Part shown: in pieces, positions 5,905 to 20,271 of the stretch
How the letters are laid out: each line of letters opens with the position of its first letter
How positions within the stretch are numbered: position 1 is the first letter of the stretch
NCBI GenBank assembly: GCA_023475025.1
Contig: JAMCWB010000068.1
Location: forward strand, 1-36,907
DNA: 36,907 nucleotides
Direction of reading: 5' to 3'
From: Gammaproteobacteria bacterium
Lineage (GTDB): Bacteria > Pseudomonadota > Gammaproteobacteria > Pseudomonadales > Pseudomonadaceae
The notes under the pieces: generated by a model
Told to the model about the DNA's origin: nothing
Databases searched by the model: none
What the model saw: the letters and a program-made list of their open reading frames with translations, nothing else
Program-made: the position numbers and the translations under genes

Positions 5905-6432
5905 ATGAAGAAGGCACTGCTTGTCAGCACGCTTACGCTAGGCGGGTTACTGGTATCACCGCACAGTCTGGCACTGGATTCGGTGAGCCTGGATGTGGGC
6001 CACAGCTCGGAATCCACCACTACGATGCGCCTGGGCGCGCAGTGGGATTTTGGTCAGACACTGTGGGAGAACCGTGGCGGTGATCTACGCCTGGATGGTT
6101 ACTGGGATATCGCCGCCACCGACTGGGGCAGTCTGAACACCACCAGTGTGGATGCATCACCCGTTTTGCGGCTTAACTTCGGTAGTGGTCAGGCAACGCC
6201 ACACTTGTATCTTGAAGCGGGTATCGGGGTAGCCTGGTTCAGCCGTTCACGGCTGGCGCCGGGCACCAATCTGGGCTCCAGTCTGCAGTTTGCCGACCGC
6301 ATCGGGCTAGGTTTGCGCCTGGCCAATGGCAATGATGTTGGTCTGCGTTTCTTTCATTACTCCAATGCCGGCTTCAATCGGCGCAATAGCGGGGTGGAGA
6401 CTGTTGCCTTGCACTACCGGCTCAATCTCTGA
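5905..6432 (+). CDS. pagL: PagL-type lipid A 3-O-deacylase, outer membrane
   Basis: PagL removes the 3-O-linked acyl chain of lipid A in the outer membrane. The 175-residue protein has a signal peptide (MKKALL, hydrophobic core, cleavage near residue 23 after SLA) and amphipathic beta strands fitting an eight-strand barrel. His151, Ser153 and Glu165 lie in HYSNAG and GVETVALHY. The His-to-Ser (+2) and His-to-Glu (+14) spacing equals that of the known P. aeruginosa triad His126/Ser128/Glu140. I chose 5905 because of the signal peptide and the AAGGAAGAG upstream; an earlier in-frame start at 5770 lies inside murI. It converges with and overlaps the DUF2878 gene by 11 bases. Confidence 0.9.
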   Translation: MKKALLVSTLTLGGLLVSPHSLALDSVSLDVGHSSESTTTMRLGAQWDFGQTLWENRGGDLRLDGYWDIAATDWGSLNTTSVDASPVLRLNFGSGQATPHLYLEAGIGVAWFSRSRLAPGTNLGSSLQFADRIGLGLRLANGNDVGLRFFHYSNAGFNRRNSGVETVALHYRLNL

Positions 6433-6964
6433 CCCTGTTGGCTTGCTGCTCGGCCAGCTGGCGCTGCCGGTATTGCTCACGATACAGATGGGCAAAGCCA
6501 TGCAATACCGGCAGCACCACAGCCCAGATGGCGGCGAGGATAGCCACGCTGGGCCATAGGCCAAGGGGCAGCTCAACATCGGCCAGGGCGGCCCCGGCGA
6601 CATAGGAGACCGGGGCTGCAGCCGCACCGACCATGGCTGCCAACCACCAGCGTTGGCTCCAGGCCAGGCAGTGATTGAGTGTGGTCGCCAGCAGGGCCCA
6701 GAGCAGGGCCAGCCAGAGGGGGACCAGATCGGACTCGCCGGGGAAGTGAAATACACCCAGATGCATCAGGAAGGAATCCAGTGCGGCGCCGGCAAAAAAC
6801 ACCGTCATCACCAGCTTGCCCTCAGCTGCCCAGCTGCTGGTCCAGGTGAAATGCACCAGCAGTACGCCGAGGGGGATCAACAGCCAGAACGAACTGCCGC
6901 CAAGTACCGCTGCGAACCAGCCCAACTGGAACAGGACGGCATTGGCAATCAGTTTGATCGGCAT
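6422..6964 (-). CDS. DUF2878 family membrane protein
   Basis: This 180-residue protein is almost wholly hydrophobic, with about five or six likely membrane helices (for example LIPLGVLLVHFTW, LVPLWLALLWALLATTLNH, SVAILAAIWAVVLPVLHGF). It fits the DUF2878 family of inner-membrane proteins, whose function is not known to me. The start at 6964 is one base beyond the stop of the cfa-like gene, so the two are coupled. It is the last gene of the long photolyase operon. In related operons a small membrane protein of this kind accompanies the CFA-like enzyme. The start is set by context; a longer in-frame extension into the cfa-like gene exists but is unlikely. Confidence 0.75.
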   Translation of the reverse strand: MPIKLIANAVLFQLGWFAAVLGGSSFWLLIPLGVLLVHFTWTSSWAAEGKLVMTVFFAGAALDSFLMHLGVFHFPGESDLVPLWLALLWALLATTLNHCLAWSQRWWLAAMVGAAAAPVSYVAGAALADVELPLGLWPSVAILAAIWAVVLPVLHGFAHLYREQYRQRQLAEQQANRVRD

Positions 6965-6965
6965 C

Positions 6966-8318
6966 TCAGGCTCCCAGGGTGTGTAAGTGTAGGTCCGGTC
7001 GGGCGTCGGGTTTGCTGAACAGGATCTGTGCGGTACCGATCGAGCGCTCATCAAAGCCGCCTTCGCAGTAACACAGATAGAACTCCCAGAGCCGGAAAAA
7101 GTAGTCATCATACCCGAGTTGCTGCAGGTGGCTGCGTGCGTTTTTCAGGTTGCGGTACCAGTGGCGCAGGGTTTCTGCGTAATGCAGGCCAATATCTTCC
7201 AGGTGCAGCATGGCTAGATCGGTATGCTTGCGCGTCAGTTCGCCAATCAGGCTGACCGAGGGCAGCGAGCCGCCGGGGAACACGTAGCGCTGGATAAAGT
7301 CCACGCTCTTGCGTGCCTGCTCATAGCGCTGATCACGGATGGTAATGGCTTGCAGCAACATCAGGCCATGGGGTTTCAGGCGCCGGGCACAATGCTCGAA
7401 ATAGGTGCGGAAGTAATTGTGCCCGACCGCTTCGACCATTTCGATCGAGACCAGCTTGTCGTATTCCCCGGTCAGTTCGCGGTAATCCTTGAGCAGCAGG
7501 GTAATACGGTCCTCCAGTCCCAGCTCGATTACCTTGTCGCGGGCGAAGGCGTACTGCTCTTGTGACAGGGTGGTGGTGGTGACGCGGCAGCCGTAATGCT
7601 GCGCGGCATAAATGGCCATACTGCCCCACCCGGTGCCAATTTCCAGCAGATGGTCATCCGGCTTGAGTTCCAGTTTGCGGCAGATGCGTTCGAGTTTGTG
7701 CTGCTGGGCCTGCTCAAGATTATCGCACTGGGGTGGGAAAATAGCCGCCGAGTACATCATGCTCGGGTCGAGAAAGTTCTCGAACAGGTCATTGCCGAGG
7801 TCGTAGTGCGCCTGGATATTGCGCCGCGAGCCCTTCAGTGTGTTGCGGTTCAGCCAGTGAATCCACTTCAGTGCCGGGCGTCCGAGGCGCGCCATACCCT
7901 GTTCCATGGCGTCGAGCACATCCAGGTTACGCACGAACAGTCGGGTGACTGCACTGAGGTCGGGCGTGGTCCAGAAGCCGTGAATATAGGATTCGCCGGC
8001 ACCCACGCTGCCACTACCGGCGACCATGGGATAGGCCGCGGCGCTGTGTAGATAGACATCAGCATGCAGGCCATCGCTGTCAGGCTGCCCGAATTGCAGG
8101 GCCTCACCGTTTTCATGCAGGGTCAGGGTGCCGAAGCGCAGGGCTTTGAGCTGGGCCAGTACCAGGCGGCGGGACAGCGACTGCATCCAGTTGGGCCGCT
8201 CGGCGACTTGCTCCGCGCGGGCGCGGGTCTTGCCCAGCAGTTGACTGGCGCGCTCATCGGATACTGTCTGGTCGTCGGGGTAACAGACCAGCAGCTCGTC
8301 TTGGCTAATGCTTTTCAT
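6966..8318 (-). CDS. Cyclopropane-fatty-acid-synthase-like SAM methyltransferase (UfaM-like)
   Basis: This 450-residue protein has an N-terminal lipid-binding region (about 1-165) and a C-terminal SAM domain with motif LEIGTGWGSMA at 225-235. It aligns well with CFA synthases (HYDLGNDLF, LDPSMMYS, FPGGSLPSV). In E. coli Cfa, bicarbonate is held by Cys139, Glu239, His266, Ile268 and Tyr317. Here Glu296, Ile325 and Tyr380 are kept, but the Cys and His positions are Ala191 (MYSAAIF) and Gln323 (LLQAI). That argues against ordinary cyclopropanation. It fits the idea of a UfaM-type enzyme that methylates an unsaturated acyl chain on the way to furan fatty acids. It overlaps DUF1365 by 14 bases. 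Family call firm; reaction inferred. Confidence 0.9.
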   Translation of the reverse strand: MKSISQDELLVCYPDDQTVSDERASQLLGKTRARAEQVAERPNWMQSLSRRLVLAQLKALRFGTLTLHENGEALQFGQPDSDGLHADVYLHSAAAYPMVAGSGSVGAGESYIHGFWTTPDLSAVTRLFVRNLDVLDAMEQGMARLGRPALKWIHWLNRNTLKGSRRNIQAHYDLGNDLFENFLDPSMMYSAAIFPPQCDNLEQAQQHKLERICRKLELKPDDHLLEIGTGWGSMAIYAAQHYGCRVTTTTLSQEQYAFARDKVIELGLEDRITLLLKDYRELTGEYDKLVSIEMVEAVGHNYFRTYFEHCARRLKPHGLMLLQAITIRDQRYEQARKSVDFIQRYVFPGGSLPSVSLIGELTRKHTDLAMLHLEDIGLHYAETLRHWYRNLKNARSHLQQLGYDDYFFRLWEFYLCYCEGGFDERSIGTAQILFSKPDARPDLHLHTLGA

Positions 8319-9117
8319 CTGAGGACTCCTTGACCTTGATAGCGGTGGCCGCCGTGGTGATCTGCACGGGTGCGGTATGATCGAAAATTGGAATGCGTTT
8401 GAGTGCCAGGCGCAGTGCCTGCCAGTAAATACCGGTGATGGTTTTCAGCACCATAAAGGGAAAGCTGACCGCTTCACGTCGCAGCAGGCTCTTGCTCAAT
8501 GGCTGGCGCGCCAGGTTGAGCGTGGCATCGAACAGCTTTTCATGTGCTTGCCAGTCTTCCATATGAATCAGCAAGGTGCGCCCCGGTTGGCTGAAGCGCA
8601 TGCGGTAATCCACCTCACTGGGCAGGAAGGGTGATACCTGGAATGACTTGGCGACCTGAAAATTCTGCGTGCGCTGCTCCGGATCGGTTTTCATCACATA
8701 GCAGTAGCGCTCCAGCCAGGGCGTATTACTGACTTCGGTAATGATGGCTCGCAGCTTGTGCGCCTGATCGTAGCAATAGAAAAAGGAGGCCGGATTGAAC
8801 ACCAGGCCGAAACTGCGTACCTGCGTCAGTAGGCAGACCGGGCCGTTCAGCTGCAAGCCCAACTGTTCCTGCACCAGGCGCTGCGCGGTTTGCTGCAGGC
8901 TTTCATCCTCGCGGGCATGGTGGCGCAGATAATCGCCCGGGCGAAAGCGCATGGGTGACCACCAGCGACCGGACCACAGGCTGCTCAGCTTGAACACCTC
9001 GGCTTGCTCGTCGAGGTTCAACCACAACAGGCTCAAGCGGTAGGTGAAGTTGTGTGTCTTCGGGGCGTAACGGCGATGCCGTATCCAGCCGCGATAGAGG
9101 GCGCTTGACGGGTTCAT
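8305..9117 (-). CDS. DUF1365 family protein
   Basis: This 270-residue protein starts MNPSSALYRGWIRHRRYAP, the standard DUF1365 opening with its conserved R-H-R and 'FTYRLSLLWLNLDE' segments. FGLVFNPASFFYCYD in the middle is a further family hallmark. There is no signal peptide or clear membrane helix. Its biochemical function is not established. The gene is repeatedly found between a flavin oxidoreductase and a CFA-like enzyme, as here, so a role in membrane fatty-acid modification is the best inference. It overlaps the FAD gene upstream by four bases and the cfa-like gene downstream by 14. Confidence 0.88.
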   Translation of the reverse strand: MNPSSALYRGWIRHRRYAPKTHNFTYRLSLLWLNLDEQAEVFKLSSLWSGRWWSPMRFRPGDYLRHHAREDESLQQTAQRLVQEQLGLQLNGPVCLLTQVRSFGLVFNPASFFYCYDQAHKLRAIITEVSNTPWLERYCYVMKTDPEQRTQNFQVAKSFQVSPFLPSEVDYRMRFSQPGRTLLIHMEDWQAHEKLFDATLNLARQPLSKSLLRREAVSFPFMVLKTITGIYWQALRLALKRIPIFDHTAPVQITTAATAIKVKESSDEKH

Positions 9118-10364
9118 GCGGAATCCTCCTGCAATGCCTCAACCACACGCAGGGCGCTGACCACGCCATCTTCATGAAAGCCATTGGCCCAGTAGGCGCC
9201 ACAGAAGTAGCTGTGCCGGGTGCCGAGCAATTCGCGCCAGCGCTGCTGGGCCTGTTGCGCTGGCAAGCTGAATTGCGGGTGAGCATAGTTGAAGCGGGCG
9301 AGAATCTTGTCAGGATCAATGGCCGCGGTCTGGTTCAGGCTGACACAGAAGGTCTCAGGCGCCTGAATACCCTGCAGTATGTTCATGTTGTAGGTCACTG
9401 CCGCCGGTTGCTGGTGGTCGCCGCCCAGGCGGTAGTTCCAGCTGGCCCAGGCCAGTTTGCGATCAGGCAGCAGACGGGTATCGGTGTGCAGTACGACATC
9501 GTTGTCGGCGTAGCCGATGGCGCCCAGAATGGCCAGCTCCTGCTCACTGGGCTCACTGAGCAAGGCCAGCGCCTGATCGCTGTGACAGGCAAAGATCACC
9601 TTGTCGAAATGTTCACTGCTGGCCGCACTGTGCAGGGTAACGCCTGCGGTGGTGCGCTCAACCCGCTGCACCGGGCAATTCAGCCGGATGCGATCGGCAA
9701 AGGCCGCGCTCAGGGGGGCAACATAACTGCGTGAGCCGCCTTGAATGACTCGCCACTGCGGCCGGTCACTGACCGACAGCAGGCCGTGATTACGGAAAAA
9801 GCGCACAAAGAACTGCAGCGGGAAAGCCAGCATGTCTGCCAGCGACATGGACCAGATCGCCGAGCCCATGGGGATGATGTAGTGATCAATAAAGCGCTGA
9901 CCGTACTTCTCGGCAACCAGATAGTCGCCCAGAGTCGTATCGGCACTGATGCGCTCCTCATGGAGGTCGCGCAGTGCCTGCTTGTTGAAGCGCAGGATAT
10001 CGCTGACCATGCCGAGAAAGCCGGGCGACAGCAGGTTGCGACGCTGGGCGAACAGGCTGTTGAGGTTGTTGCCGTTGTATTCCATGCGGCTGACCGGGTC
10101 ATGTACGGAAAAGCTCATTTCGGTCGGCTGTGAACTCACCCCGATATCATTCATCAACTGGATAAAGTTGGGGTAGGTCCAGTCGTTGAAGACAATAAAC
10201 CCGGTGTCGATGGCATAGGGCTGGCCCTGGACTTCTACGTCGACGGTGTGGGTGTGTCCGCCGACCCAGTCAGCAGCTTCGAACAGGGTCAGTTCGTGCT
10301 GGGCAGCCAGCTTGTAGCCGCAGACCAGGCCGGAAATACCACTACCGATAATGGCGATTCGCAT
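9114..10364 (-). CDS. NAD(P)/FAD-dependent oxidoreductase (flavin amine-oxidase fold)
   Basis: This 416-residue protein has the dinucleotide-binding loop GSGISG at residues 7-12, then the acidic end FEAADWVGGHTHT, characteristic of flavin amine-oxidase/phytoene-desaturase-like enzymes. FVVFND-like segment GFIVFNDWTYPNF and the C-terminal FCGAYWANGFHEDG are typical of the subgroup that travels with DUF1365 and CFA-like genes. A plausible role is oxidation or desaturation of a phospholipid acyl chain, but that is inference. The start shares one base with the SDR stop (TGATG), and the end overlaps DUF1365 by four bases. Confidence 0.88.
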   Translation of the reverse strand: MRIAIIGSGISGLVCGYKLAAQHELTLFEAADWVGGHTHTVDVEVQGQPYAIDTGFIVFNDWTYPNFIQLMNDIGVSSQPTEMSFSVHDPVSRMEYNGNNLNSLFAQRRNLLSPGFLGMVSDILRFNKQALRDLHEERISADTTLGDYLVAEKYGQRFIDHYIIPMGSAIWSMSLADMLAFPLQFFVRFFRNHGLLSVSDRPQWRVIQGGSRSYVAPLSAAFADRIRLNCPVQRVERTTAGVTLHSAASSEHFDKVIFACHSDQALALLSEPSEQELAILGAIGYADNDVVLHTDTRLLPDRKLAWASWNYRLGGDHQQPAAVTYNMNILQGIQAPETFCVSLNQTAAIDPDKILARFNYAHPQFSLPAQQAQQRWRELLGTRHSYFCGAYWANGFHEDGVVSALRVVEALQEDSA

Positions 10365-11131
10365 CAGTTAGAACCTCTATTATCGGGTCGGGCCATGCCC
10401 TTGGTCAGGGCGAAACGCACACTGTTGGGCAAACTGCCAAGCAGGCGCAGAAAGCCGATGAACAGGCCAGGGAAGCGAATTTCCCGTTGGCCGCGGGCAA
10501 TGCCTTTGACGATCTTGCGTGCAGCCTGTTCGCTGCTGACCTGCATCGGCATGGGGAAATCATTCTGTGCGGTCAGCGGCGTTTCGACAAAACCGGGGCT
10601 AACCAGACTGACGCCGATATTCCACTGCGCCAGATCCAGTTCCAGTGACTGGAACAGATAACGCATGGCGGCCTTGGATGCACCGTAGGCCTCGGCACGT
10701 GGCAGCGGGCAGAAGGTTACACTGCTGCCAACCCCGACCAGCCGGGGTTGGTTACCCTTTCGCAGCAAGGGCAGAGCAGCTTCGATGCAGTGCACCGTGC
10801 CCTGAACATTGGCTGCCATGACGCGGGCAAAGAGCGTAGAGTCAAACTGGGCCACATCCACATACTCGCAGGTGCCAGCGTTGAGAATCGCCAGATCCAG
10901 TGCGCCCCATTTGTCATCGAGTGCCTGGCCGACGGCCAGGACCTGGTCGAGCTCAGTCATATCGGCCGGCAGCACCTCGATCTGACCGGGAAACTCGGCG
11001 GCCAGTTCTTCCAGGGGCTCGCGGCGCCGGGCAGTCAGCGCCAGCTGATGACCGGCAGCAGCCAGTTCACGGGCCAGCGCCTGACCGATACCGCTGGAGG
11101 CGCCAGTCAGCCAGATTCGTTGCGGTGTCAT
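10364..11131 (-). CDS. Short-chain dehydrogenase/reductase (SDR)
   Basis: This is a classical SDR of 255 residues. The cofactor loop TGASSGIG is at 9-16, the NAG motif at 84-86, and the catalytic residues are Ser136/Ser137, Tyr149 and Lys153 (YGASK). The PGFVETPLT segment follows. I chose ATG 11131 because it overlaps the SnoaL stop (ATGA) and has AAGGAG seven bases upstream; the upstream in-frame start at 11152 lacks such a site. It likely uses NADP(H) on a carbonyl or alcohol. The substrate is unknown, but the operon suggests a lipid-derived molecule. Confidence 0.88.
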   Translation of the reverse strand: MTPQRIWLTGASSGIGQALARELAAAGHQLALTARRREPLEELAAEFPGQIEVLPADMTELDQVLAVGQALDDKWGALDLAILNAGTCEYVDVAQFDSTLFARVMAANVQGTVHCIEAALPLLRKGNQPRLVGVGSSVTFCPLPRAEAYGASKAAMRYLFQSLELDLAQWNIGVSLVSPGFVETPLTAQNDFPMPMQVSSEQAARKIVKGIARGQREIRFPGLFIGFLRLLGSLPNSVRFALTKGMARPDNRGSN

Positions 11132-11556
11132 GCCAATCTCCTTTTCAGCCACGCAATCAGCCGGCCAAGCAGTGGCAAGTGCTCGTAGAGCAGGGCACCG
11201 GCATCAAAATAGTCACGGTGACGGTACACCTTGTCGCCACGGAACTGCAGAAAACTACAGCCTTCGACCGCAATCGGTTGGCCGCGTTGCAGGCGGGGAT
11301 GTTGAAAGGTCATGGTCCAGCGCAGCACGACTTCAGTATCACTGAGCTGCTGGCAGTGGTGAAAGGTAAAGTCGATATGACGCACATTGGCATAGAGGTT
11401 GGCGCAGTAATCGCGCATGGCCGCCAACCCCTGGATGGTATGCAAGGGGTCAGTAAACACCATGTCATCGTGATACAGCTCAGCCAGCTGCTCAAGGTTG
11501 TTCTTGTTGAGTGCGGCAAAGCCCTGGGCGAATCGTTCGGCAGCGGTCATGGTCAT
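11128..11556 (-). CDS. SnoaL/NTF2-like protein
   Basis: This 142-residue protein fits the NTF2-like alpha+beta barrel: MTAAERFAQGFAALNKNNLEQLAELYHDDMVFTDPLHTIQG is the usual opening with the Asp-Pro turn, followed by strands LRWTMTF and VEGCSFLQFRGDKVYRHRDYFD. Such proteins bind small hydrophobic molecules or act as isomerases, dehydratases or hydroxylases. I cannot assign a reaction. The start at 11556 overlaps the photolyase stop as ATGA. The frame could be extended far upstream, but only inside the photolyase gene. Members sit next to phr in related light-induced operons. Confidence 0.82.
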   Translation of the reverse strand: MTMTAAERFAQGFAALNKNNLEQLAELYHDDMVFTDPLHTIQGLAAMRDYCANLYANVRHIDFTFHHCQQLSDTEVVLRWTMTFQHPRLQRGQPIAVEGCSFLQFRGDKVYRHRDYFDAGALLYEHLPLLGRLIAWLKRRLA

Positions 11557-12980
11557 GTGCTTTCCCCCAGGGATTTGAAGACATCGAGGGCTCGTTGTCG
11601 GGTCTGTTTCAGGTCGACAATGGCGGTGGGGTAGTCGATCGCACTGAACAGGTCGGCCCTGACCGGTTGATGAATCTGCTTGCCCTTGAGGCCAGCCAGT
11701 TCCGGCAGCCACTGGCGGATAAAGTCGCCCTGGGGGTCGAATTTTTCCGATTGGGTCAGTGGGTTGAAGATGCGGAAATAGGGCGCAGCATCGGTGCCAG
11801 TGGACGCACTCCACTGCCAGCCACCATTGTTGGCGGCGAGGTCGCCATCAATCAGGTGTTGCATAAACCAGCGCTCGCCTTCACGCCAGTCAATCAACAG
11901 GTTCTTGGTCAGGAACATGGCACTGAGCATGCGCAGGCGGTTGTGCATCCAGCCGGTTGCCAGCAGCTGACGCATGGCTGCATCCAGAATCGGGAAGCCG
12001 GTCTTGCCCTGTTGCCAGGCCTTGAGCGCGGCGGCATCGGTGCGCCAGGGCACGCTGTCCATCTCCAGACGAAAAGCCTGATGCCTTGAGACCCGTGGGT
12101 AGCAGACCAGAATATGCTTGTAGAACTCGCGCCAGAGTAATTCGTTGATCCAGCTGACGGCGCCTGGTTGACCACTGTCGAATTCGCCCTGGTTGCAGGC
12201 CAGTGCGGCATGCAGGCACTGGCGCACGGAGAGCACACCGCCAGTCAGGTAGGCTGACAGGCGGCTGGTGCCGTCGATATCGGGACGATTTCGTTGCTCG
12301 TCATAATCAGCCATGATCCGTTCGCAGAACAGGTTAAGGCGTTCAGTGGCGGCATCTTCGCCGGCTGGCCAGAGTGCGCGCTGGCTATCGCTGGCGCGAA
12401 AGTCTTCCAGCTCGGTCGGTACCGGGTCGCTGGCACAGGGAGCCTGTTGTTGGGCCTTGATGCGCGGCAGGCAGGCGGGGGTACGCTGGTGCAGCTGCCG
12501 GTAGGCAAGGCGGCGGAACTGACTGTAGACCTTGAACATGCTGCCGGCCTGAGTCAGCAGGCTTCCAGGTTTGAATAGCAATTGATCGGTGTAGCGCTGA
12601 CAGACCAGATCGGCATCGTCAAAGGCTGCAGCAACAGCATCATCGCGTTGCTGCTCATGAAGGCCGTATTCGTCATTAAAATGCAGGCATTGTGCATCCA
12701 GCGAATCAGCCAGTTGCAACAGTGCTGTGGGCGCATCTTTCCAGTCCGGCACATCAAGGATGCGCAGAGGGATATTCAGCGCCTGCAGCGCGTGACTCAG
12801 GTTGGCCAGGTTGCGCAGCCAGAAGTCCATCTTGATCGCTGCGTCGTCGTGGGCTTGCCAGGTAGCCGGGCTGAGCAGGCAGACCACGACAACTGGACCT
12901 TGCTCACGGGCATGCCAGAGGGCGTGGTTATCGCTCAGGCGCAAATCATTGCGCAGCCAGCAGAGCTGCAGTGCGCTCAT
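11553..12980 (-). CDS. phrB: Deoxyribodipyrimidine photolyase (class I CPD)
   Basis: This flavoenzyme uses blue light to split cyclobutane pyrimidine dimers. It has 475 residues, close to E. coli PhrB. The N-terminal antenna domain (LCWLRNDLRLSDNHAL) is followed by the FAD-binding domain: 'TSRLSAYLTGGVLS', 'WINELLWREFYKHIL', 'WMHNRLRMLSAMFLTKNLLIDWR' and 'GGWQWSASTGTDAAPYFRIFNP'. This pattern is that of a repair photolyase rather than a cryptochrome. The ATG at 12980 overlaps the regulator stop and has GGAGG four bases upstream. Light induction is expected from the operon's promoter sites. Confidence 0.96.
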   Translation of the reverse strand: MSALQLCWLRNDLRLSDNHALWHAREQGPVVVVCLLSPATWQAHDDAAIKMDFWLRNLANLSHALQALNIPLRILDVPDWKDAPTALLQLADSLDAQCLHFNDEYGLHEQQRDDAVAAAFDDADLVCQRYTDQLLFKPGSLLTQAGSMFKVYSQFRRLAYRQLHQRTPACLPRIKAQQQAPCASDPVPTELEDFRASDSQRALWPAGEDAATERLNLFCERIMADYDEQRNRPDIDGTSRLSAYLTGGVLSVRQCLHAALACNQGEFDSGQPGAVSWINELLWREFYKHILVCYPRVSRHQAFRLEMDSVPWRTDAAALKAWQQGKTGFPILDAAMRQLLATGWMHNRLRMLSAMFLTKNLLIDWREGERWFMQHLIDGDLAANNGGWQWSASTGTDAAPYFRIFNPLTQSEKFDPQGDFIRQWLPELAGLKGKQIHQPVRADLFSAIDYPTAIVDLKQTRQRALDVFKSLGEST

Positions 12981-13873
12981 ATGGCCTCCTGCAACCAGCT
13001 CAGCAAGCGGCTGTGCGCTCGGCTGGGCAGGTCGGCCAGCGGCTGGATGCCGAGTGTGGTCAGTTCCTCGCCATGGATGAGGGCAGCGGGGCCAGCCATG
13101 AACAGGGGGGTGTCGTGATGGTCACTCAATTTTGGCAACTGCCGGCGCAGCTGAGCGGCTGGCAGGGCCTGGCTGCTGAACATGATCAGCGCCTGGGCCT
13201 GGTTATGTTCACACAGCAGGCCGAGCTCGCTGGCGGGCACTTCCCATTCAAGCAGATTGATATGATAGCCCTCGTTGCTCAGCAGTAGTGCCAGTAACCA
13301 GAGACCCGGTTCACAGTGCTGGTCTGACAGGCTGGCCAGCGCCAGCCGCGGGCCATGCGCGTGGCAATTGTTGTGATACAGCCGGGTGGCCAACTTGCTG
13401 CGCAGCCAGGTATGGGCGAAAACCTGTTCCAGTTGGCTGCCGAACTGGCCTTGCCAGCGCTGTTCGAGCTGTTGCAGTAGCGGTTCGAGCAGTTGGGTGC
13501 ACAGGGTCCGAACCGGGTAGTGTGCGGCGGCATGGTTATAGATCTGTTCCAGCTGGATTGGGTCGAACGCCAGCAAGGCATTGAGCAGGTCTTGCTGTGC
13601 CTGTTGCCAGGGGCTGTCTATCATCGGGCGTGAGGGGTTAGGGCGTTCCAGTAGTTCCTTGACCTGACTCACGGCGACGCCACGTTCCAGCCAGGTCAGG
13701 ATTGACTGTATCTGCGCCAGATGACGATCAGAATACAAGCGGTGGCCCTTGGGCGTACGGTGTGGCTTGATCAATCCGTAGCGACGCTCCCAGGCACGCA
13801 GAGTGACGGCATTGACGCCGGTCATGCGCGACACTTCGCGGATAGGCAGCATGGCGGATTCATTGGTTGGCAT
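12977..13873 (-). CDS. MerR-family light-response regulator (LitR/CarH-like, PplR1 type)
   Basis: This 298-residue protein has an N-terminal MerR winged helix (LPIREVSRMTGVNAVTLRAWERRYGL, residues 9-34; TPKGHRLYSD, 40-49). A helical bundle and a cobalamin-binding-like Rossmann region (about 175-298) follow. DQHCEPG at 184-190 resembles the ExHxxG motif but with one extra residue. Against CarH as I recall it, Trp140 is retained, while the Glu/His pair that contacts adenosylcobalamin appears to be Gln150/Val151. P. putida class II LitR proteins act with a LOV photoreceptor rather than B12. The start is ATG 13873 with AGGAG seven bases upstream; the TTG at 13879 has its AGGAG too close. It probably represses its own operon in the dark. 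Confidence 0.87.
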   Translation of the reverse strand: MPTNESAMLPIREVSRMTGVNAVTLRAWERRYGLIKPHRTPKGHRLYSDRHLAQIQSILTWLERGVAVSQVKELLERPNPSRPMIDSPWQQAQQDLLNALLAFDPIQLEQIYNHAAAHYPVRTLCTQLLEPLLQQLEQRWQGQFGSQLEQVFAHTWLRSKLATRLYHNNCHAHGPRLALASLSDQHCEPGLWLLALLLSNEGYHINLLEWEVPASELGLLCEHNQAQALIMFSSQALPAAQLRRQLPKLSDHHDTPLFMAGPAALIHGEELTTLGIQPLADLPSRAHSRLLSWLQEAI

Positions 13874-13894: not shown

Positions 13895-14851
13895 TCAGAT
13901 GGCGTTACGCAGGCTGAGCCCGGGCGGGTGAGGTTGCAGGTAAGCCTGTTGGTGCAGGTAACCGTCAGGGTGCTTCATCAGGTGATGCTTCAGTAAGGTG
14001 AGCGGGACGATCAAGGGCACCTGCCCCTGCCGGTATTCTGCGATTAGGGAGTCCATTTCCTGGCGTTCATCACTGCTCAGCACACGTTTGAAATGACCGG
14101 CAATATGCGCCAGTACATTGCTGTGTGTGCCGCGATTGGCCACTTTTTTCAGGCTGACCATGAGCAGCTCGAAATAAGCCTCGGCAATGGCGGACAGGTC
14201 AGTGGTTGAGAGGTTGGCGAGCAACTGGCCCATGCGCTGATAATGCGCCGGGTGGTGGGCCAGTAGCAGGTATTTGTGCCGGGCATGGAATGTGAGCAGG
14301 CTTCTGGCCGTCAACCCGTCGGCTGTCATTTGCTGCCAGGCGGCATACACCATGACCCGGGTCACAAAGTTCTCGCGGAGTACCGGGTCATGCAGGCGAC
14401 CTTCTTCTTCAACCGGCAACAAGGGGTGCTGGCGCATCAGTTCCGCGGCAAAAGCACCTGCTGCCGTGCCCTGGGCGGGGTGTCCGTTGGCTTGATAGAC
14501 CTTGACCCTTTCCATGCCGCAACTCGGCGACTTCTGCATCAAGATAAAACCGCACAGTTGGGTTTGCTCGTCGGCGACCTTGCGGGCGTAGCGGTGCAGT
14601 TCGTCGGTCACATCCAGGCTGGCTGTCTTGCTACCTACTACCCGAGGCTGGCTCGGCTCTCCAACCAGGCGGATAGGTTCGCGGGGTGTGCCCAGGCCAA
14701 TGCTGACTTCCGGGCAGAACGGCACCAGCGAAAAACTGTCACCCAGTTGAACGGTGCACAGGCGTGAGTGCTTGTGCCCGCCGTTGAAACGGACTGGACT
14801 TCCCAGCAAGCATTGGCTGATGCCAATAGGGATGCGCTGTGAATCAAGCAT
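13895..14851 (-). CDS. DUF523 (TudS-like) plus DUF1722 fusion protein
   Basis: This 318-residue protein joins two domains. The first (about 1-165) is DUF523: IGISQCLLGSPVRFNGGHK, PFCPEVSIGLGTPREP and SPSCGMERVKVY. Cys14, Cys46 and Cys111 are the likely ligands of a [4Fe-4S] cluster, as in the thiouracil desulfidase TudS. The second (about 185-300) is DUF1722 (HARHKYLLLAHHPAHYQRMGQLLA, then a His- and Lys-rich helical part), of unknown function. The YbgA-type fusion often accompanies phr, suggesting a role in nucleic-acid damage or thionucleobase detoxification; that is inference. It is the first gene of the operon, 15 bases ahead of the regulator. Confidence 0.88.
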   Translation of the reverse strand: MLDSQRIPIGISQCLLGSPVRFNGGHKHSRLCTVQLGDSFSLVPFCPEVSIGLGTPREPIRLVGEPSQPRVVGSKTASLDVTDELHRYARKVADEQTQLCGFILMQKSPSCGMERVKVYQANGHPAQGTAAGAFAAELMRQHPLLPVEEEGRLHDPVLRENFVTRVMVYAAWQQMTADGLTARSLLTFHARHKYLLLAHHPAHYQRMGQLLANLSTTDLSAIAEAYFELLMVSLKKVANRGTHSNVLAHIAGHFKRVLSSDERQEMDSLIAEYRQGQVPLIVPLTLLKHHLMKHPDGYLHQQAYLQPHPPGLSLRNAI

Positions 14852-14864
14852 GGCCTGTACCTCT

Positions 14865-14921
14865 TATACAGTAACAAGGTTGTGTACAAGAATTAGTGTA
14901 CACAAGTCTCATATTTGTACA
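14865..14921. promoter_or_regulatory. Putative PplR1/LitR operator cluster upstream of the photolyase operon
   Basis: TATACA (14865-14870), exactly 12 bases, then TGTACA (14883-14888) fits the P. putida PplR1 site T(G/A)TACA-N12-TGTA(C/T)A as I recall it. Two more TGTACA boxes follow at 14897-14902 and 14916-14921, eight and 13 bases apart from their neighbours. The array starts 14 bases before the ATG of the DUF523-DUF1722 gene and lies in the gap that also ends the Trp-rich gene. Box positions are read directly; the binding protein is inferred. Confidence 0.75.
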
Positions 14922-14959
14922 AGTATTATAAAGGTCACGCAAGTTGATTTGTGCTGCGG

Positions 14960-15175
14960 TCAGCGCCAGCCCATCAGCCAGCGATCGTCATCACGCAGCT
15001 GTCGCCAGTCCAATCGTTGCGAGCGCCGGGTCAGCACGGCTTCCAGCTCAACGGCCTGGATCTGCTCCAGTTCATCGCGGTACAGGGCCGTCACCATGAA
15101 GTGGCGTTCACGTTGCACCGGATGCTTGGCCGTCCATTTTGAGTGCAGCATCTTTTCCGGGTTCAGTCGGTGCAT
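14960..15175 (-). CDS. Small Trp-rich protein (TIGR02450 family)
   Basis: This 71-residue protein, MHRLNPEKMLHSKWTA and onward, matches the small TIGR02450 family: a conserved LNP-K-LLHSKWTA start, 'REKHF'-like REREHF segment (RERHFMVTALYRDE), and a Trp-rich tail ending WLMGWR. Its function is not known. It begins four bases after the upstream flavin oxidoreductase gene ends, so the two form one unit. It stops about 40 bases before the operator cluster of the photolyase operon. Confidence 0.82.
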   Translation of the reverse strand: MHRLNPEKMLHSKWTAKHPVQRERHFMVTALYRDELEQIQAVELEAVLTRRSQRLDWRQLRDDDRWLMGWR

Positions 15176-15179
15176 AGTG

Positions 15180-16169
15180 TCAGTGTTTGCTCATCAGGGT
15201 TTTCGCTGCTTGCTGGCCACTGAGCCAGGCATTCTCGACCCGGCCCCCAAGGCACCAGTCGCCACAGGCATAGAGCCCGAGTTCGGGGGCGGCGAGAGCC
15301 CCCCATTCACACTGTTGTCCGGGGCGAGCATAGAGCCAGCGATGCAGATGGCTGAACTGAGCGGGCGGCAGATCCATGCCGAGCACCTCCGCGAAAGCGG
15401 ACAACAGGCCCTGGCTGACATCGGCTTTGTCGGTCTCCAGGTTCATCTGGGCCCAGCCGGGTGTTGACTGCAGGACCCAGGTGTCAGCTTGCTCACGCCC
15501 GGGTTTACTGCTGTTGCGGGAGATCCAGTCAAGCGGGCCTTCGCGTACAAAGCAAGCTTCTACCTGTGTGTCCAGAGGTTCGCTAAAGCTCAGGGCCAAT
15601 GTCCAGCCAGGCAACATCTCAACCTGGCGGGCGGCATGCGCCAACTGACTGGCTGGCTCCAGTAAAGGCGCCGCTTGCGGCGCAGGTGTGGCAACGATGA
15701 CCCGGTCAAAGGCGCCATACTCCTGGTTCTGGTCATCTACCAGCAACCACTGCCCATCAGCCTGAGGCTGAAGCTTTTCGATTCGGGTACTGCTGATCAA
15801 TTCCAGACCTTCCAGCAAGGCGCGCGACCAGGCTGACATGCGCGGGTAACCCACAAATCGCTGCTGGTCATCGGTGGAGCGGCGCAAGCCGGACTGGTCA
15901 TATTGATAGACGCGCGGTGTCCACTCCTCGACGTAGCCGGCATCCAGCCAGCCCTTGAGTTCCTGGCGAAAACCATGATCGCGGGCAGTGAAATACTGTG
16001 CCCCCATATCGAAATTGCCAAAATCGGTGCGCTTGCTGCTCAGGCGCCCACCACTACCGCGACTCTTGTCGAACAGGGTGACGGCGTGACCAGCTGAAGC
16101 CAGGCTGCGGGCGGCACTGATACCGGCCAGTCCGGCACCTATGATGGCGATGTTTAGCACGTGCGACAT
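15180..16169 (-). CDS. NAD(P)/FAD-dependent oxidoreductase (renalase-like)
   Basis: This 329-residue protein begins MSHVLNIAIIGAGLAG, with the Rossmann loop GAGLAG at 11-16, then FDKSRGSGGRLSSKR and 'FDMGAQYFTARD', hallmarks of the bacterial renalase-like flavin oxidoreductases. The C-terminal YACGDWCLGGRVENAWLSG is the second FAD-binding segment. The natural substrate is not established for most relatives. I chose ATG 16169 because the Rossmann motif starts at once; the reading frame runs 58 codons further upstream without resemblance to the family. A light-regulator-type operator sits 53-76 bases upstream of this start. Confidence 0.86.
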   Translation of the reverse strand: MSHVLNIAIIGAGLAGISAARSLASAGHAVTLFDKSRGSGGRLSSKRTDFGNFDMGAQYFTARDHGFRQELKGWLDAGYVEEWTPRVYQYDQSGLRRSTDDQQRFVGYPRMSAWSRALLEGLELISSTRIEKLQPQADGQWLLVDDQNQEYGAFDRVIVATPAPQAAPLLEPASQLAHAARQVEMLPGWTLALSFSEPLDTQVEACFVREGPLDWISRNSSKPGREQADTWVLQSTPGWAQMNLETDKADVSQGLLSAFAEVLGMDLPPAQFSHLHRWLYARPGQQCEWGALAAPELGLYACGDWCLGGRVENAWLSGQQAAKTLMSKH

Positions 16170-16221
16170 GGGGAAGTCAGACTCCGTTACGGATTGGATA
16201 CAGAATTGGCTCGACAAAACT

Positions 16222-16245
16222 TGTACATGGCAAAAAGTGTGTATA
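16222..16245. promoter_or_regulatory. Putative PplR1/LitR operator upstream of the flavin oxidoreductase
   Basis: TGTACA (16222-16227), exactly 12 bases, then TGTATA (16240-16245) is a full match to the T(G/A)TACA-N12-TGTA(C/T)A consensus. It lies in the 233-base gap between the divergent flavin oxidoreductase (ATG 16169) and the TIGR01777 gene (ATG 16403). Its distance suits control of the former. Confidence 0.72.
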
Positions 16246-16402
16246 GCATCGCTCAATCTGATGGTGGCTGCAAGCATCTGACAGCGCGATAGCTTAGACT
16301 GATTCAGCAGAATCATATCCTTCCTGTGAAACCAGCTGCGCACAGGTATGGCAATTCAGCCATTGTTGCTTGCAGTACAGGCACATAACCAGGAGAGACG
16401 GC

Positions 16403-17299
16403 ATGCATATCTTGCTCACCGGTGGGACCGGGTTGATCGGGCGCGCCTTGTGTAAACACCTGGCTGCAGAGGGTCATCAGCTGACTGTCTGGAGCCGGCG
16501 ACCGGATCAGGTTGCTGCTTTGTGCGGGGCGCAAGTGCAAGGCGTGGCCAGTTTGCAACAGCTTGATGGTCAGCCTGTGGATGCGATTATCAATCTGGCC
16601 GGCGCGCCTATTGCTGATCGCCCCTGGACAGCCAAGCGTAAAGCGGTTCTCTGGGCTAGTCGGGTTGGTTTGACCGAGCAGCTGGTCGAGTGGCTGGGCC
16701 AGCAAGCGCATAAGCCGATGGTGTTGATCAGTGGGTCGGCTGTTGGCTGGTACGGTGATGGCGGCGATACCCTGGTGACCGAGCAGAGCCCACCCAATCT
16801 GGAATATACCCATACCCTGTGTGATGCCTGGGAGGCCGCTGCCCGCCGTGCCAGCGCCCATGGTATCCGCGTTTGCCTGCTACGCACCGGCCTGGTGCTG
16901 GCGCCGGACGGCGGCTTTCTGTCGCGCCTGCTGTTACCTTTCAAGCTCGGCCTTGGCGGGCCGATCGGCAAGGGTCAGCACTTTATGCCCTGGGTGCATC
17001 GCGACGACATGGTCGGGGTTATCATACACCTGCTGCACAACGCCGATGCCAAGGGCGCCTTCAATGCGGTGGCGCCCAACCCGGTCAGTAATCGTGAATT
17101 TGCCCGCACGCTGGGTAAGGCGCTCAAGCGCCCCGCTGTTTTGCCCTTGCCGGCTCCACTGCTCAAGCTGGGATTGGGTGAAATGTCGCGCTTGCTGCTG
17201 ACCGGTCAGCGTGCCGTACCGGAAAAAATACTTGAGCAGGGCTATTCATTTAAATTCAGCGACCTGGAAACGGCGTTGAATGATGTTATCAATCACTGA
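16403..17299 (+). CDS. TIGR01777 family NAD(P)-dependent epimerase/oxidoreductase (YfcH-like)
   Basis: This 298-residue protein has the extended-SDR nucleotide loop GGTGLIG at 7-13, INLAGAPIADRPWT around residues 64-77 and 'SGSAVGWYGD' with the YG-D signature of the family. DUF1731-type residues (ALKRPAVLPLPAPLLKLGLGEMS, LLTGQRAVPEKILEQGYSF) end the protein. The reaction is not established. AGGAG lies seven bases before ATG 16403, which decides the start over an in-frame one at 16370. It is 15 bases ahead of hemH, so both probably share a transcript. Confidence 0.9.
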   Translation: MHILLTGGTGLIGRALCKHLAAEGHQLTVWSRRPDQVAALCGAQVQGVASLQQLDGQPVDAIINLAGAPIADRPWTAKRKAVLWASRVGLTEQLVEWLGQQAHKPMVLISGSAVGWYGDGGDTLVTEQSPPNLEYTHTLCDAWEAAARRASAHGIRVCLLRTGLVLAPDGGFLSRLLLPFKLGLGGPIGKGQHFMPWVHRDDMVGVIIHLLHNADAKGAFNAVAPNPVSNREFARTLGKALKRPAVLPLPAPLLKLGLGEMSRLLLTGQRAVPEKILEQGYSFKFSDLETALNDVINH

Positions 17300-17314
17300 C
17301 AGTCGGGAGTTTTC

Positions 17315-18334
17315 ATGTCATCACGTGGGGTATTGCTGGTCAATCTGGGGTCGCCAGAAAGCACTGAAGTGGCGGACGTCAAACGCTACCTGAATCAGTT
17401 TTTGATGGATCCTTATGTGATTGACCTGCCCTGGCCGGCGCGTCGCTTGCTGGTCAGTCTGATTCTGCTGCTCAGGCCGAAGAAATCCGCCGAGGCCTAC
17501 GCCTCGATCTGGTGGGACGAGGGCTCGCCCTTGATCGTGATCAGTCGCCGTGTGCACCAGGCGGTTCAGGCGCAACTGGATATGCCGGTTGAACTGGCCA
17601 TGCGCTATGCGGAGCCTTCGATTGAGCGGGGCATTCTCGCGCTGGCGAAACAGGGGGTGAGTGAGATCCTGTTCATGCCGCAATATCCCCAGCATGCCGA
17701 CAGCACCATTACCACTTCGGTCAAGGAAGCGGAGCGTGTTATCCGTGAGCATCAGCTGTCGGTCAAGCTGACCGTGGTACCGGCCTTCTACCAGCGCAAG
17801 GAGTATATGGATGCCCTGGTTGCCAGTGCCCAGGAGTACTTCGAGCAGCCCTTTGACCACCTGTTGATGAGTTATCACGGGCTGCCGGAGCGACATCTGC
17901 GTAAAGCCGATCCAACCGGTCAGCACTGCCTCAAATCTCCGGATTGCTGCGAGCGTCCTTCGCCGGCGCATGTCACCTGCTACCGGGCGCAATGCACTGC
18001 TGTCAGTAAAGCCTTTGCTGAGCGTATGGGGCTGAGTGATGGTCAGTGGTCACAGGCTTTCCAGTCACGTCTGGGCAAGGACAAGTGGATTGAACCCTAC
18101 ACCGATGCGCGGGTTGATGAGCTGGCGGCACAGGGGGTCAAGCGTCTGATCGTCATGTGCCCAGCTTTTGTGGCTGACTGTATCGAAACGCTGGAAGAGA
18201 TTGGCGACGAGTTGCGCGAGCAGTTCATTGCAGCCGGCGGTGAAGAGCTGAGACTGGTACCTTGTCTGAATGACCATCCGCAATGGATCGAGGCCCTGGT
18301 GCACTGGAGCCGAACCGAGCCTGAAGCGGCCTGA
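17315..18334 (+). CDS. hemH: Ferrochelatase
   Basis: Ferrochelatase inserts Fe2+ into protoporphyrin IX, the last step of protohaem synthesis. The 339-residue length is typical. The catalytic His188 lies in [10 protein letters not shown] and the conserved acidic residue Glu291 in [10 protein letters not shown]. Cys residues around 205-212 and 222-227 ([17 protein letters not shown]) are common in the pseudomonad enzymes. It follows the TIGR01777 gene by 15 bases. Pilus genes start 116 bases downstream, whereas uraA follows hemH in P. putida. Confidence 0.97.
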
Positions 18335-18450: not shown

Positions 18451-18978
18451 ATGCACATCAGGGTTGGTCGGACAGGAAAGTCTGACGTTCTAAGGGCTGT
18501 ACAATGGGTTGTGCAGCCACCTATCTTTCGACGCCCGTTGTTGCCTGCGCAACAGGGCGTCAGTCTGCTCGAAGTCCTGATCGCTGTGCTGGTGCTGGCC
18601 ATTGGTGTGCTCGGTGCTGCCGCCCTGCAGCTCAATGCTTTGCGCTTCAATGCCAGCGCTGCGCACACCACCCAGGCCAGCTTTATAGCCTATGACATGC
18701 TCGACCGTATGCGGGCCAATGCTGCCAATCTGGCCAGCTACGCCACGACGGTGGAGAGTTGCCCGGCTACCAGTCTGGCGCCGGGGAGTATTGGTGCTAC
18801 CGATCTGGCTGACTTTGCCCGGGCGGTTGGCTGTCAGCTGCCCAATGGGTCGGGCTCGATAGCCATCAATGGCGGTCGTGCCACTGTGACGATTCGTTGG
18901 TCGGAAGCCCGCATCCAGGCCGAGGAACCGGATCGGGAGTTTGTTGTGTCCAGCCTGATCCGGAATCTTGCGCCATGA
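18451..18978 (+). CDS. pilV: Type IV pilus minor pilin PilV
   Basis: The prepilin site is AQQG followed by VSLLEVLIAVLVLAIGVLGAAALQ: Gly at -1 and Glu at +5, for cleavage by PilD. The rest is a PilV-like periplasmic domain with two Cys residues (ESCPATS and AVGCQLP), and the protein ends IRNLAP. It belongs to the priming complex at the pilus tip. The start at 18451 has AAGGTG six bases upstream and gives an unusually long leader of 36 residues before the cleavage Gly's successor; no later start has a good ribosome site. The stop overlaps pilW as ATGA. 175 residues. Confidence 0.88.
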   Translation: MHIRVGRTGKSDVLRAVQWVVQPPIFRRPLLPAQQGVSLLEVLIAVLVLAIGVLGAAALQLNALRFNASAAHTTQASFIAYDMLDRMRANAANLASYATTVESCPATSLAPGSIGATDLADFARAVGCQLPNGSGSIAINGGRATVTIRWSEARIQAEEPDREFVVSSLIRNLAP

Positions 18979-19763
18979 GGCCTGTACCGCAGCAGGGCAG
19001 CGAATCACAGCGCGGTCTGAGCCTGGTCGAGTTGATGATTGCCCTGGTGCTGGGCTTGATCCTGGTGCTTGGCGTAGTGCAGGTGTTTCTTGCCAGCCAG
19101 CAGACCTTCAGCCTGCAACAACGCGCCTCTGCGTTGCAGGAGGATGCACGCTTTGTGCTCAGCCGACTGTCCAGCGAACTCCGTATGGTGAACATGTTTG
19201 GCTGCCTGAATCTGGCCCGCCTGCCGGCATCGGTGCGTGATCAGTTGCCCGCGGAGCTGGATCAGCCAATCCGCTTTGAGGCCGGGGTGCTGACCCTGGT
19301 GACTGCCGATCCCAATACCGAGCTTTTTGCCAGCAGTACCTCGCGTTCGGTCAGCGATTACGGTGCCCAGTGGTTGCTGGCTACCAATTGCCGCAACCAA
19401 GTGCGTATGGCCAGCAGTGGCCAGGTCAGCGTGGCGCCAGGGGACGTCCTTATTCCGCTGCGTCAGTTGCAATACCGGGTGCACAACCATCAGCTACAGG
19501 TGCGCAGCAATGCTGCCGGCAGCTATGAAACCCTGATCGAAGGTGTGGCCGGGTTTGAGGTCAGCTTCGGCCTGGCGGCTTCGGCCGCTGAGCCGGGGGT
19601 TCAGGGTCACTATGTCAGCAGTGTGGACAGTACTGATGCCGGCCGCATTCGCAGCGTGCGCCTGGCGTTGCAGTTGAGTGATAGTCCGGCTGACACCCAG
19701 GCAGCCCGGGTACAGCCACGTGACTATACCCTGGTTGCAACCTTGCGTAATCGCAGCGACTGA
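18975..19763 (+). CDS. pilW: Type IV pilus minor pilin PilW
   Basis: The 262-residue protein has the prepilin motif SQRG followed by LSLVELMIALVLGLILVLGVVQVFL, with Glu at +5. The large C-terminal domain (RFVLSRLSSELRMVNMFGCLN, later 'VSFGLAASAAEPGVQGHYVSS') is PilW-like. PilW joins PilV, PilX and PilY1 in the tip complex that starts pilus assembly. The ATG at 18975 overlaps the pilV stop by four bases. A longer in-frame start at 18897 falls inside pilV and is rejected. Confidence 0.9.
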   Translation: MRPVPQQGSESQRGLSLVELMIALVLGLILVLGVVQVFLASQQTFSLQQRASALQEDARFVLSRLSSELRMVNMFGCLNLARLPASVRDQLPAELDQPIRFEAGVLTLVTADPNTELFASSTSRSVSDYGAQWLLATNCRNQVRMASSGQVSVAPGDVLIPLRQLQYRVHNHQLQVRSNAAGSYETLIEGVAGFEVSFGLAASAAEPGVQGHYVSSVDSTDAGRIRSVRLALQLSDSPADTQAARVQPRDYTLVATLRNRSD

Positions 19764-19776
19764 GCGAGGAGTGAAC

Positions 19777-20271
19777 ATGCTGATAGCCCAAAGCGACCGA
19801 CAGCGTGGTGCCGCCCTGGCGGTCAGTCTGATTTTTTTGCTGTTGATGACACTCGCGGCGGTGACTGCGGTACAGGGCTCGGCGAGTCAGGAGCGCATGG
19901 CCGCGAATATCCAATTCAAGAATGACAGTTTTCAGGCTGCCGAAGCGGGGCTACGTCAGGCTGAAGCCGACTTGCTGGATAATCTTGCTCATTTCGCTGT
20001 GCCCTGTAGCGGTGCCGGCTGCAATGTGGAGCAGAGTATTTTTGATCTGTCTTCGCACTCAAGGCCCAGCGCCGACTGGGTGAAAATCAGTCCATCCGTA
20101 CACACCAATGATATGACGGTGTGGTATCGGGTAATCAATCTCGGGCAAGCCAGTGCGCCGGTACAGAGTCCGCTTGCAGCCCCCGGAACCCTGTATCGAG
20201 TTGTGGTGGTGGCCTTTCGAGGCTCGACCCGAACCGTGCTGGAGAGTGTCTATGTGCGCACTGAGGCGTGA
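19777..20271 (+). CDS. pilX: Type IV pilus minor pilin PilX
   Basis: The 164-residue protein has RQRG followed by AALAVSLIFLLLMTLAAVTAVQGS. There is Val, not Glu, at +5. The family's PilX/GspK-type members also lack this Glu, which suits a tip-most subunit. 'FQAAEAGLRQAEADLLDNLA' is the characteristic helix of PilX. The start has GAGGAG a few bases upstream, 13 bases after the pilW stop. The end overlaps pilY1 by 20 bases. Confidence 0.88.
   Translation: MLIAQSDRQRGAALAVSLIFLLLMTLAAVTAVQGSASQERMAANIQFKNDSFQAAEAGLRQAEADLLDNLAHFAVPCSGAGCNVEQSIFDLSSHSRPSADWVKISPSVHTNDMTVWYRVINLGQASAPVQSPLAAPGTLYRVVVVAFRGSTRTVLESVYVRTEA

Follow-up and report, generated by a model that had tools for sequence, protein, structure and literature searches.

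Two minus-strand gene units, each headed by an exact copy of the motif TRTACA-N12-TGTAYA, lie in the window, by which the whole 36,907-nucleotide stretch of DNA analysed here is meant (Table 1). Nine closely packed genes, running from 14851 down to 6422 behind operator A, form the litR operon, and two further genes (unit B) follow operator B. The preliminary description had claimed two exact sites with a 12-base spacing, no other such pair, and eleven genes behind them, with a photolyase and a MerR/LitR-type regulator in one of the units. Both sites and their spacing were found in the window sequence, an exact pattern scan of the window returned operators A and B and no further match, each site indeed lies just ahead of a minus-strand unit, the one behind operator A holding the photolyase and the regulator, and the eleven genes were recovered as nine plus two. 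The consensus given there for PplR1, T(G/A)TACA-N12-TGTA(C/T)A, equals the published one (PMC9758184).

Table 1. Features of the two operator-headed units and of the LitR2/short LOV locus
Feature	Location	Strand	Basis or remark
Operator A, TATACA-N12-TGTACA	14865..14888		exact; 13 bases 5' of the first start codon of the litR operon
Predicted litR-operon promoter, TTGTAC-N16-TACACT	14895..14922	-	conservation among 18 promoters
Extra TGTACA hexamer	14897..14902	-	overlaps predicted -10 TACACT (14900-14895)
Extra TGTACA hexamer	14916..14921	-	overlaps predicted -35 TTGTAC (14922-14917)
DUF523 (2-thiour_desulf)/DUF1722 protein, first litR-operon gene	13895..14851	-	Pfam PF04463, PF08349
LitR1, class II LitR-type MerR regulator	12977..13873	-	MerR_1 8.9e-18, B12-binding_2 (PF02607) 2.5e-6; start taken as ATG 13873 from start context
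DNA photolyase PhrB	11553..12980	-	NF007955 534.9 bits, cut-off 506
SnoaL-like protein	11128..11557	-	PF12680 1.7e-21; start context
Short-chain dehydrogenase (SDR)	10364..11131	-	PF00106 3.1e-43; start context
FAD-dependent oxidoreductase 1 (Amino_oxidase)	9114..10364	-	PF01593 2.1e-26
DUF1365 protein	8305..9117	-	PF07103 1.1e-73
CMAS-family methyltransferase, ufaM-like	6966..8318	-	PF02353 1.7e-86
DUF2878 protein, last litR-operon gene	6422..6964	-	PF11086 2.1e-39; start context
Operator B, TGTACA-N12-TGTATA	16222..16245		exact
FAD-dependent oxidoreductase 2 (Amino_oxidase), first gene of unit B	15180..16169	-	PF01593; start by conservation
TIGR02450/DUF2389 tryptophan-rich protein, second gene of unit B	14960..15175	-	71 residues; TIGR02450 70.4 bits, cut-off 36.85; PF09493
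LitR2	contig C41, L037:7717-8679		MerR helix-turn-helix match
Short LOV protein (P0003), 146 residues, Cys53	contig C41, L037:8884-9324		PAS-type Pfam matches only

Operator B falls inside the longest open reading frame of the FAD oxidoreductase 2 gene (15180-16343). The start was taken as ATG 16169 because this codon is conserved in L079 and L080, and operator B therefore lies 52 bases upstream of the gene. On its other side, the operator is flanked by a divergent epimerase gene (yfcH-like) and then a ferrochelatase gene (window 16222-18334), with matches in 69 and 66, respectively, of the 80 named loci (the best 80 of at least 586). Farther along the plus strand, the stretch 18897-23164 has a match of the N-methylation/PilW type at 18897-19763 and, at 20153-23164, an open reading frame of 1003 residues; these genes are perhaps type IV pilus minor pilins.

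The methyltransferase of the litR operon scored below the cyclopropane synthase cut-offs and is provisionally termed ufaM-like by position and family only; UfaM of Rhodobacter carries out the first step of furan fatty acid synthesis (PMC7380195).

Promoter Architecture

The minus-strand layout of the litR promoter is TGTACA-N13-TGTACA-N8-TGTACA-N12-TGTATA, in which the first two hexamers overlap the predicted -35 and -10 boxes and operator A follows, downstream of the predicted transcription start and ahead of the start codon. The TTGTAC-N16-TACACT form occurred once in the window and was present with spacer 16 in 15 of 18 litR promoters (the window and 17 relatives); L095 matched in another register only, with spacer 15, and L092 and L094 gave no match to this form. 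A generic promoter scan called nothing at operator A or operator B. At operator B, a weak extended -10 element, TGC-TATACA, can be read on the minus strand.

Distribution and Conservation of the Operator Sites

The preliminary description had named a genome motif scan and shuffled sequences as checks, and both bore it out. Three exact TRTACA-N12-TGTAYA sites were found in the genome assembly (3,100,910 bases, 71 contigs, 91.43% complete) against one for the backwards-pattern control, and 100 dinucleotide shuffles of the window contained none. Allowing one mismatch added 12 sites, nine of which lay wholly within mechanically called open reading frames of at least 100 residues and were set aside; the other three were located ahead of folE, at C12:5966 ahead of a GNAT-family gene, and at C60:17873. 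With up to two mismatches, 154 matches were obtained versus 111 in the backwards control, so that such loose sites carry little meaning. Since the site is a palindrome, its sequence reads as a direct and as an inverted repeat alike. One particular 24-base palindrome, TATACATGCCAGCATGCATGTATA (read on either strand), was observed at G011:C24:57170, G031:C62:1341 and G032:C1:3128823, and with one mismatch at C60:17873 of the present genome (G000); it may be a different element, because its spacer is conserved across several genomes.

Comparison of the LitR1 neighbourhood in 17 genomes of the same genus revealed an exact operator ahead of FAD oxidoreductase 2 in all 14 relatives having the gene and at the litR-operon promoter in 14 of the 17, the remaining three (L090, L091 and L093) keeping three hexamers with the N13 and N8 spacings at the litR operon without an exact N12 pair. 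Across these relatives the operator hexamers were preserved and the spacer sequence varied. Two additional loci, L236 (G028) and L246 (G019), show the photolyase gene directly after the DUF523/1722 gene without litR1 in between, and the operators are still present there.

A wider comparison used named loci from a genome-contig scan, namely the best 80 of at least 586 confirmed relatives (1,428,507 bases). Among these best 80, spacer 12 gave 139 exact pairs in 79 loci, each other spacer from 4 to 20 gave 0-6 exact pairs, and spacer 21 gave 30. Reading the spacer-21 pairs as gaps between tandem sites was rejected: in L128, hexamer two of the FAD-oxidoreductase site is paired with a further TGTACA downstream of it, and 12 of the spacer-21 cases have the stretch of L128 in common, L128 alone being traced to the gene start. 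By promoter, again within the best 80 of at least 586, exact sites stood ahead of the litR operon in 75 of 79 named loci and ahead of the FAD-oxidoreductase gene in 12 of 67; allowing one mismatch raised the latter figure to 66 of 67. When this one-mismatch test of the FAD-oxidoreductase promoter was run with each remaining spacer between 8 and 16, matches were obtained in 1/67 at N8, in 3/67 at N10 and in none at the rest.

These spacer and position controls indicate that the operator sites are under selection, and they bring the operator footprint into clear view, with the hexamers and the 12-base spacing retained and the spacer sequence free to change. They also bear on the explanation that the pairs arose by chance or by promoter composition, AT-rich promoters being places where palindromic hexamers can occur. 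The litR promoter offers this explanation a foothold, its first two hexamers coinciding with the predicted -35 and -10 boxes; however, the sharp preference for spacer 12 and the retention of hexamers beside a drifting spacer sequence make it hardly credible.

LitR Paralogs and the Putative Light Sensor

LitR1 combines an N-terminal MerR helix-turn-helix with a B12-binding_2 match (Table 1) and gave no PF02310 (B12-binding) match at E 0.001. The second paralog, LitR2, has a MerR helix-turn-helix (4.3e-17) nearly identical in this region to that of LitR1, and matched neither PF02607 nor PF02310 at E 0.001. The CarH model NF052513 scored 100.6 bits for LitR1 and 75.6 bits for LitR2, under its cut-off of 400. 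By domain make-up, both proteins are assigned to class II LitR and not to class I LitR/CarH.

The likely light sensor is a short LOV protein whose gene neighbours that of LitR2 on contig C41, where genes for a DCC1-like protein, FolE and FolM are also found; the genome-wide PAS_9 search gave no match on the contig of the window. It is a LOV/PAS protein without effector domain, of the kind and size (about 150 residues) classed as short LOV (SB-LOV), its best structure matches are named sensory box proteins, and Cys53 occupies the position given for the flavin-adduct cysteine of SB-LOV (PMC9758184). Short LOV proteins have been recorded in the Halopseudomonas lineage (PMC6922532). The one-mismatch operator on C41 lies 101 bases ahead of folE, and a fol-gene operator within one mismatch was present in 7 of 17 relatives (L206, L207, L208, L209, L210, L212 and L214), the other 10 having no such site ahead of the fol genes. 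A 573-residue open frame contains a further LOV-like domain (G000:C12:11796-12170), which shares 48% identity with the short LOV protein and could be another light input. A PF04244 profile search of the genome gave no match; the published cryB is presumably a member of this family.

Co-occurrence of LitR, Short LOV Proteins and Operators

In a set of 58 genomes, with LitR called at E ≤ 1e-30 and short LOV at E ≤ 1e-58, LitR was present in 32 and short LOV in 31, all 31 belonging to the LitR-positive 32. The one LitR genome lacking short LOV, G038, is 75% complete, and G057, likewise without short LOV, matched LitR more weakly (1.1e-19). Among the 37 same-genus genomes, the 30 that were LitR-positive contained 58 exact sites and the seven that were LitR-negative contained none, with six sites over all 37 for the backwards-pattern control; at least one exact site occurred in 24 of the 30 and none in the other six, and 36 of the 58 sites fell in the photolyase/FAD-oxidoreductase cluster. 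The 19 other-genus genomes without LitR nevertheless held 13 exact sites, spread over seven of them, so a lone exact site proves little and the 0/7 contrast is weak.

Such LitR-free occurrences, together with TGTACA being a common palindromic half-site, are what could be said for assigning the sites to some other TGTACA-palindrome regulator unrelated to light. This is very unlikely: both within the genus and in named Pseudomonas, litR, photolyase and fol genes have the spacer-12 pair in front of them, and the pair is identical to the site footprinted for PplR1/PmlR2 (PMC9758184).

Four genomes (G006, G018, G028 and G033) encode a LitR2-type and no LitR1-type protein and have kept an exact operator in front of the FAD oxidoreductase gene, a survival of operators that bears on which LitR paralog represses.

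Proposed Mechanism

The two sites are very probably class II LitR operators, through which LitR would repress in the dark, the short LOV protein would relieve repression in blue light, and the eleven genes would be induced. The published light-induced gene set, the class II LitR assignment and the spacer and position controls support the LitR-type light-regulon reading of the preliminary description at the sequence level, and binding, repression, LOV-LitR contact and light induction are extrapolated from P. mendocina and P. putida. In the dark, LitR1 and/or LitR2 would sit on both operators, covering the transcription start just behind the TTGTAC-N16-TACACT promoter at the litR operon and being bound near the promoter at the FAD oxidoreductase 2 gene. 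Blue light would produce a cysteine-flavin adduct in the short LOV protein, which in the adduct state would bind LitR and remove it from DNA, following which the photolyase, LitR1 itself, and the lipid-modifying and redox enzymes among the eleven genes would be expressed.

It is also conceivable that the operators belong to LitR and the light input does not come from the short LOV protein, LitR1 sensing light alone or via another photoreceptor. The LOV contact in P. mendocina was shown for PmlR2, not PmlR1 (PMC9758184), the genome has the further LOV-like domain on C12, and LitR1, unlike LitR2 at E 0.001, still matches B12-binding_2. Against it stand the missing PF02310 match of LitR1, the joint presence of LitR and short LOV in 31 of 32 LitR genomes and the operators retained in LitR2-type-only genomes, which leave this alternative improbable. 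For the preferred reading, in which the short LOV protein relieves LitR repression, the regulator, the sensor and the targets of a LitR/LOV blue-light regulon are located together in one genome.

A Candidate Signalling Branch

The light regulon probably extends past the eleven genes. The third exact site of the genome (L003, G000:C53:47666-47689) lies ahead of a globin-PAS-GGDEF-EAL gene, and the ortholog of this gene in G029 (82% identity) is likewise preceded by an exact site, C1:153539-153562, whose spacer sequence differs. In the present genome the longest open reading frame of this gene covers the site, though stop codons early in the reading of the G029 ortholog point to a later start. 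The test covered 29 of 31 loci, with L228 and L314 left out; the 27 more distant homologs had no site within one mismatch, and the third site is shared with one sister genome only (G029), the G027 homolog being just 46% identical. The covering frame, the distant homologs lacking a site and the single sister genome count against a signalling role, and the third site is put forward as a candidate light-to-c-di-GMP branch.

In relatives, an exact operator precedes a 4HB_MCP_1-type chemoreceptor (methyl-accepting chemotaxis) gene in G011, G019, G023 and G030 (L231, L234, L243 and L245), that is, in 4 of 12 same-genus orthologs, with eight lacking it; spacer 13 likewise yielded three exact pairs in the chemoreceptor promoters, and the ortholog search in the present genome returned none at E 1e-40. 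In G011, G014, G020 and G031 (L235, L240, L247 and L276; 4/30), a DUF6436 gene and a GGDEF gene have another exact site between them. Including the one-mismatch sites of G023, G026 and G030, the pair has a site in 7 of 30 cases, at -189 to -196, and no site within one mismatch in the other 23; matches in G019 and G035 lay outside the test, and none of five LitR-negative genomes with the pair had a site. The DUF6436 gene may be the target, because the L235 site is nearer its start. In G031 (L239), a site also precedes a cryptochrome/photolyase pair.

That the LitR/LOV regulon of this genus reaches signalling and motility, blue light tuning c-di-GMP turnover and chemoreceptor supply via one common repressor, is a tentative proposal from these sites, with the chances slightly against it. 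The globin-coupled c-di-GMP gene and, in relatives, the chemoreceptor gene are its predicted further members. Literature on LitR, light, chemotaxis, diguanylate cyclase and Halopseudomonas, at the level of titles and abstracts and apart from the P. putida gene list, described no such branch. Overall, the newer points are modest and comprise the operator footprint, the operators kept in LitR2-type-only genomes, and the candidate branch towards c-di-GMP and chemoreceptor genes.

Comparison with Known Systems

By its sequence features, the system is one already known, the class II LitR/short-LOV blue-light regulon of Pseudomonas (PMC9758184). In P. mendocina, where PmlR1/PmlR2 and PmSB-LOV have the same operator consensus and spacing as found here, the mechanism, including light-dependent LOV-LitR binding, was worked out with PmlR2 and PmSB-LOV by footprinting, run-off transcription and surface plasmon resonance (PMC9758184). 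Nine genes there, PME6650 to PME6610, including pmlR1, phrB and ufaM, were predicted as one light-induced unit, similar to the nine-gene operon with litR, phrB and a ufaM-like gene in the window, and LitR2, short LOV and the fol neighbourhood are likewise placed away from the operon, with TGTACA-N12-GGTATA ahead of folM (PMC9758184). The P6650 promoter, with a -35/-10 spacer of 16, has Site 2 between transcription start and start codon, as operator A is placed here, but it contains two N12 sites, whereas the litR promoter of the window has one exact N12 site and an N13 pair over the predicted -35 and -10 boxes (PMC9758184). Compared with P. mendocina, the window has in addition the exact site ahead of FAD oxidoreductase 2 and the TIGR02450 gene, the gene going unmentioned in the part of the P. 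mendocina account used for comparison (PMC9758184).

The PplR1-PplR3 regulon of P. putida KT2440 (PMC9758184, PMC8508746, PMC11014904) agrees in class II LitR and operator consensus, and its light-induced phrB, ufaM and folE match gene types found here, within a PplR list of 19 genes that was compared in part. A light link has been discussed for the gene cluster that runs up to PP_0742 and includes the photolyase PP_0739 and PplR1 (PP_0740) (PMC11014904). P. putida has three LitR and two short LOV proteins, whereas two LitR and one short LOV were found here. The class I LitR/CarH proteins, adenosyl-B12 sensors, are similarly MerR-type repressors of light-induced genes but carry a B12-binding domain, in contrast to LitR1 and LitR2 with no PF02310 match. 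The BluR/BluF pair of E. coli, set side by side by description, resembles the proposed system in that repression by a MerR-type protein is lifted by a second protein, a blue-light receptor; the receptor is of the BLUF type there and a LOV protein here (PMC9758184).
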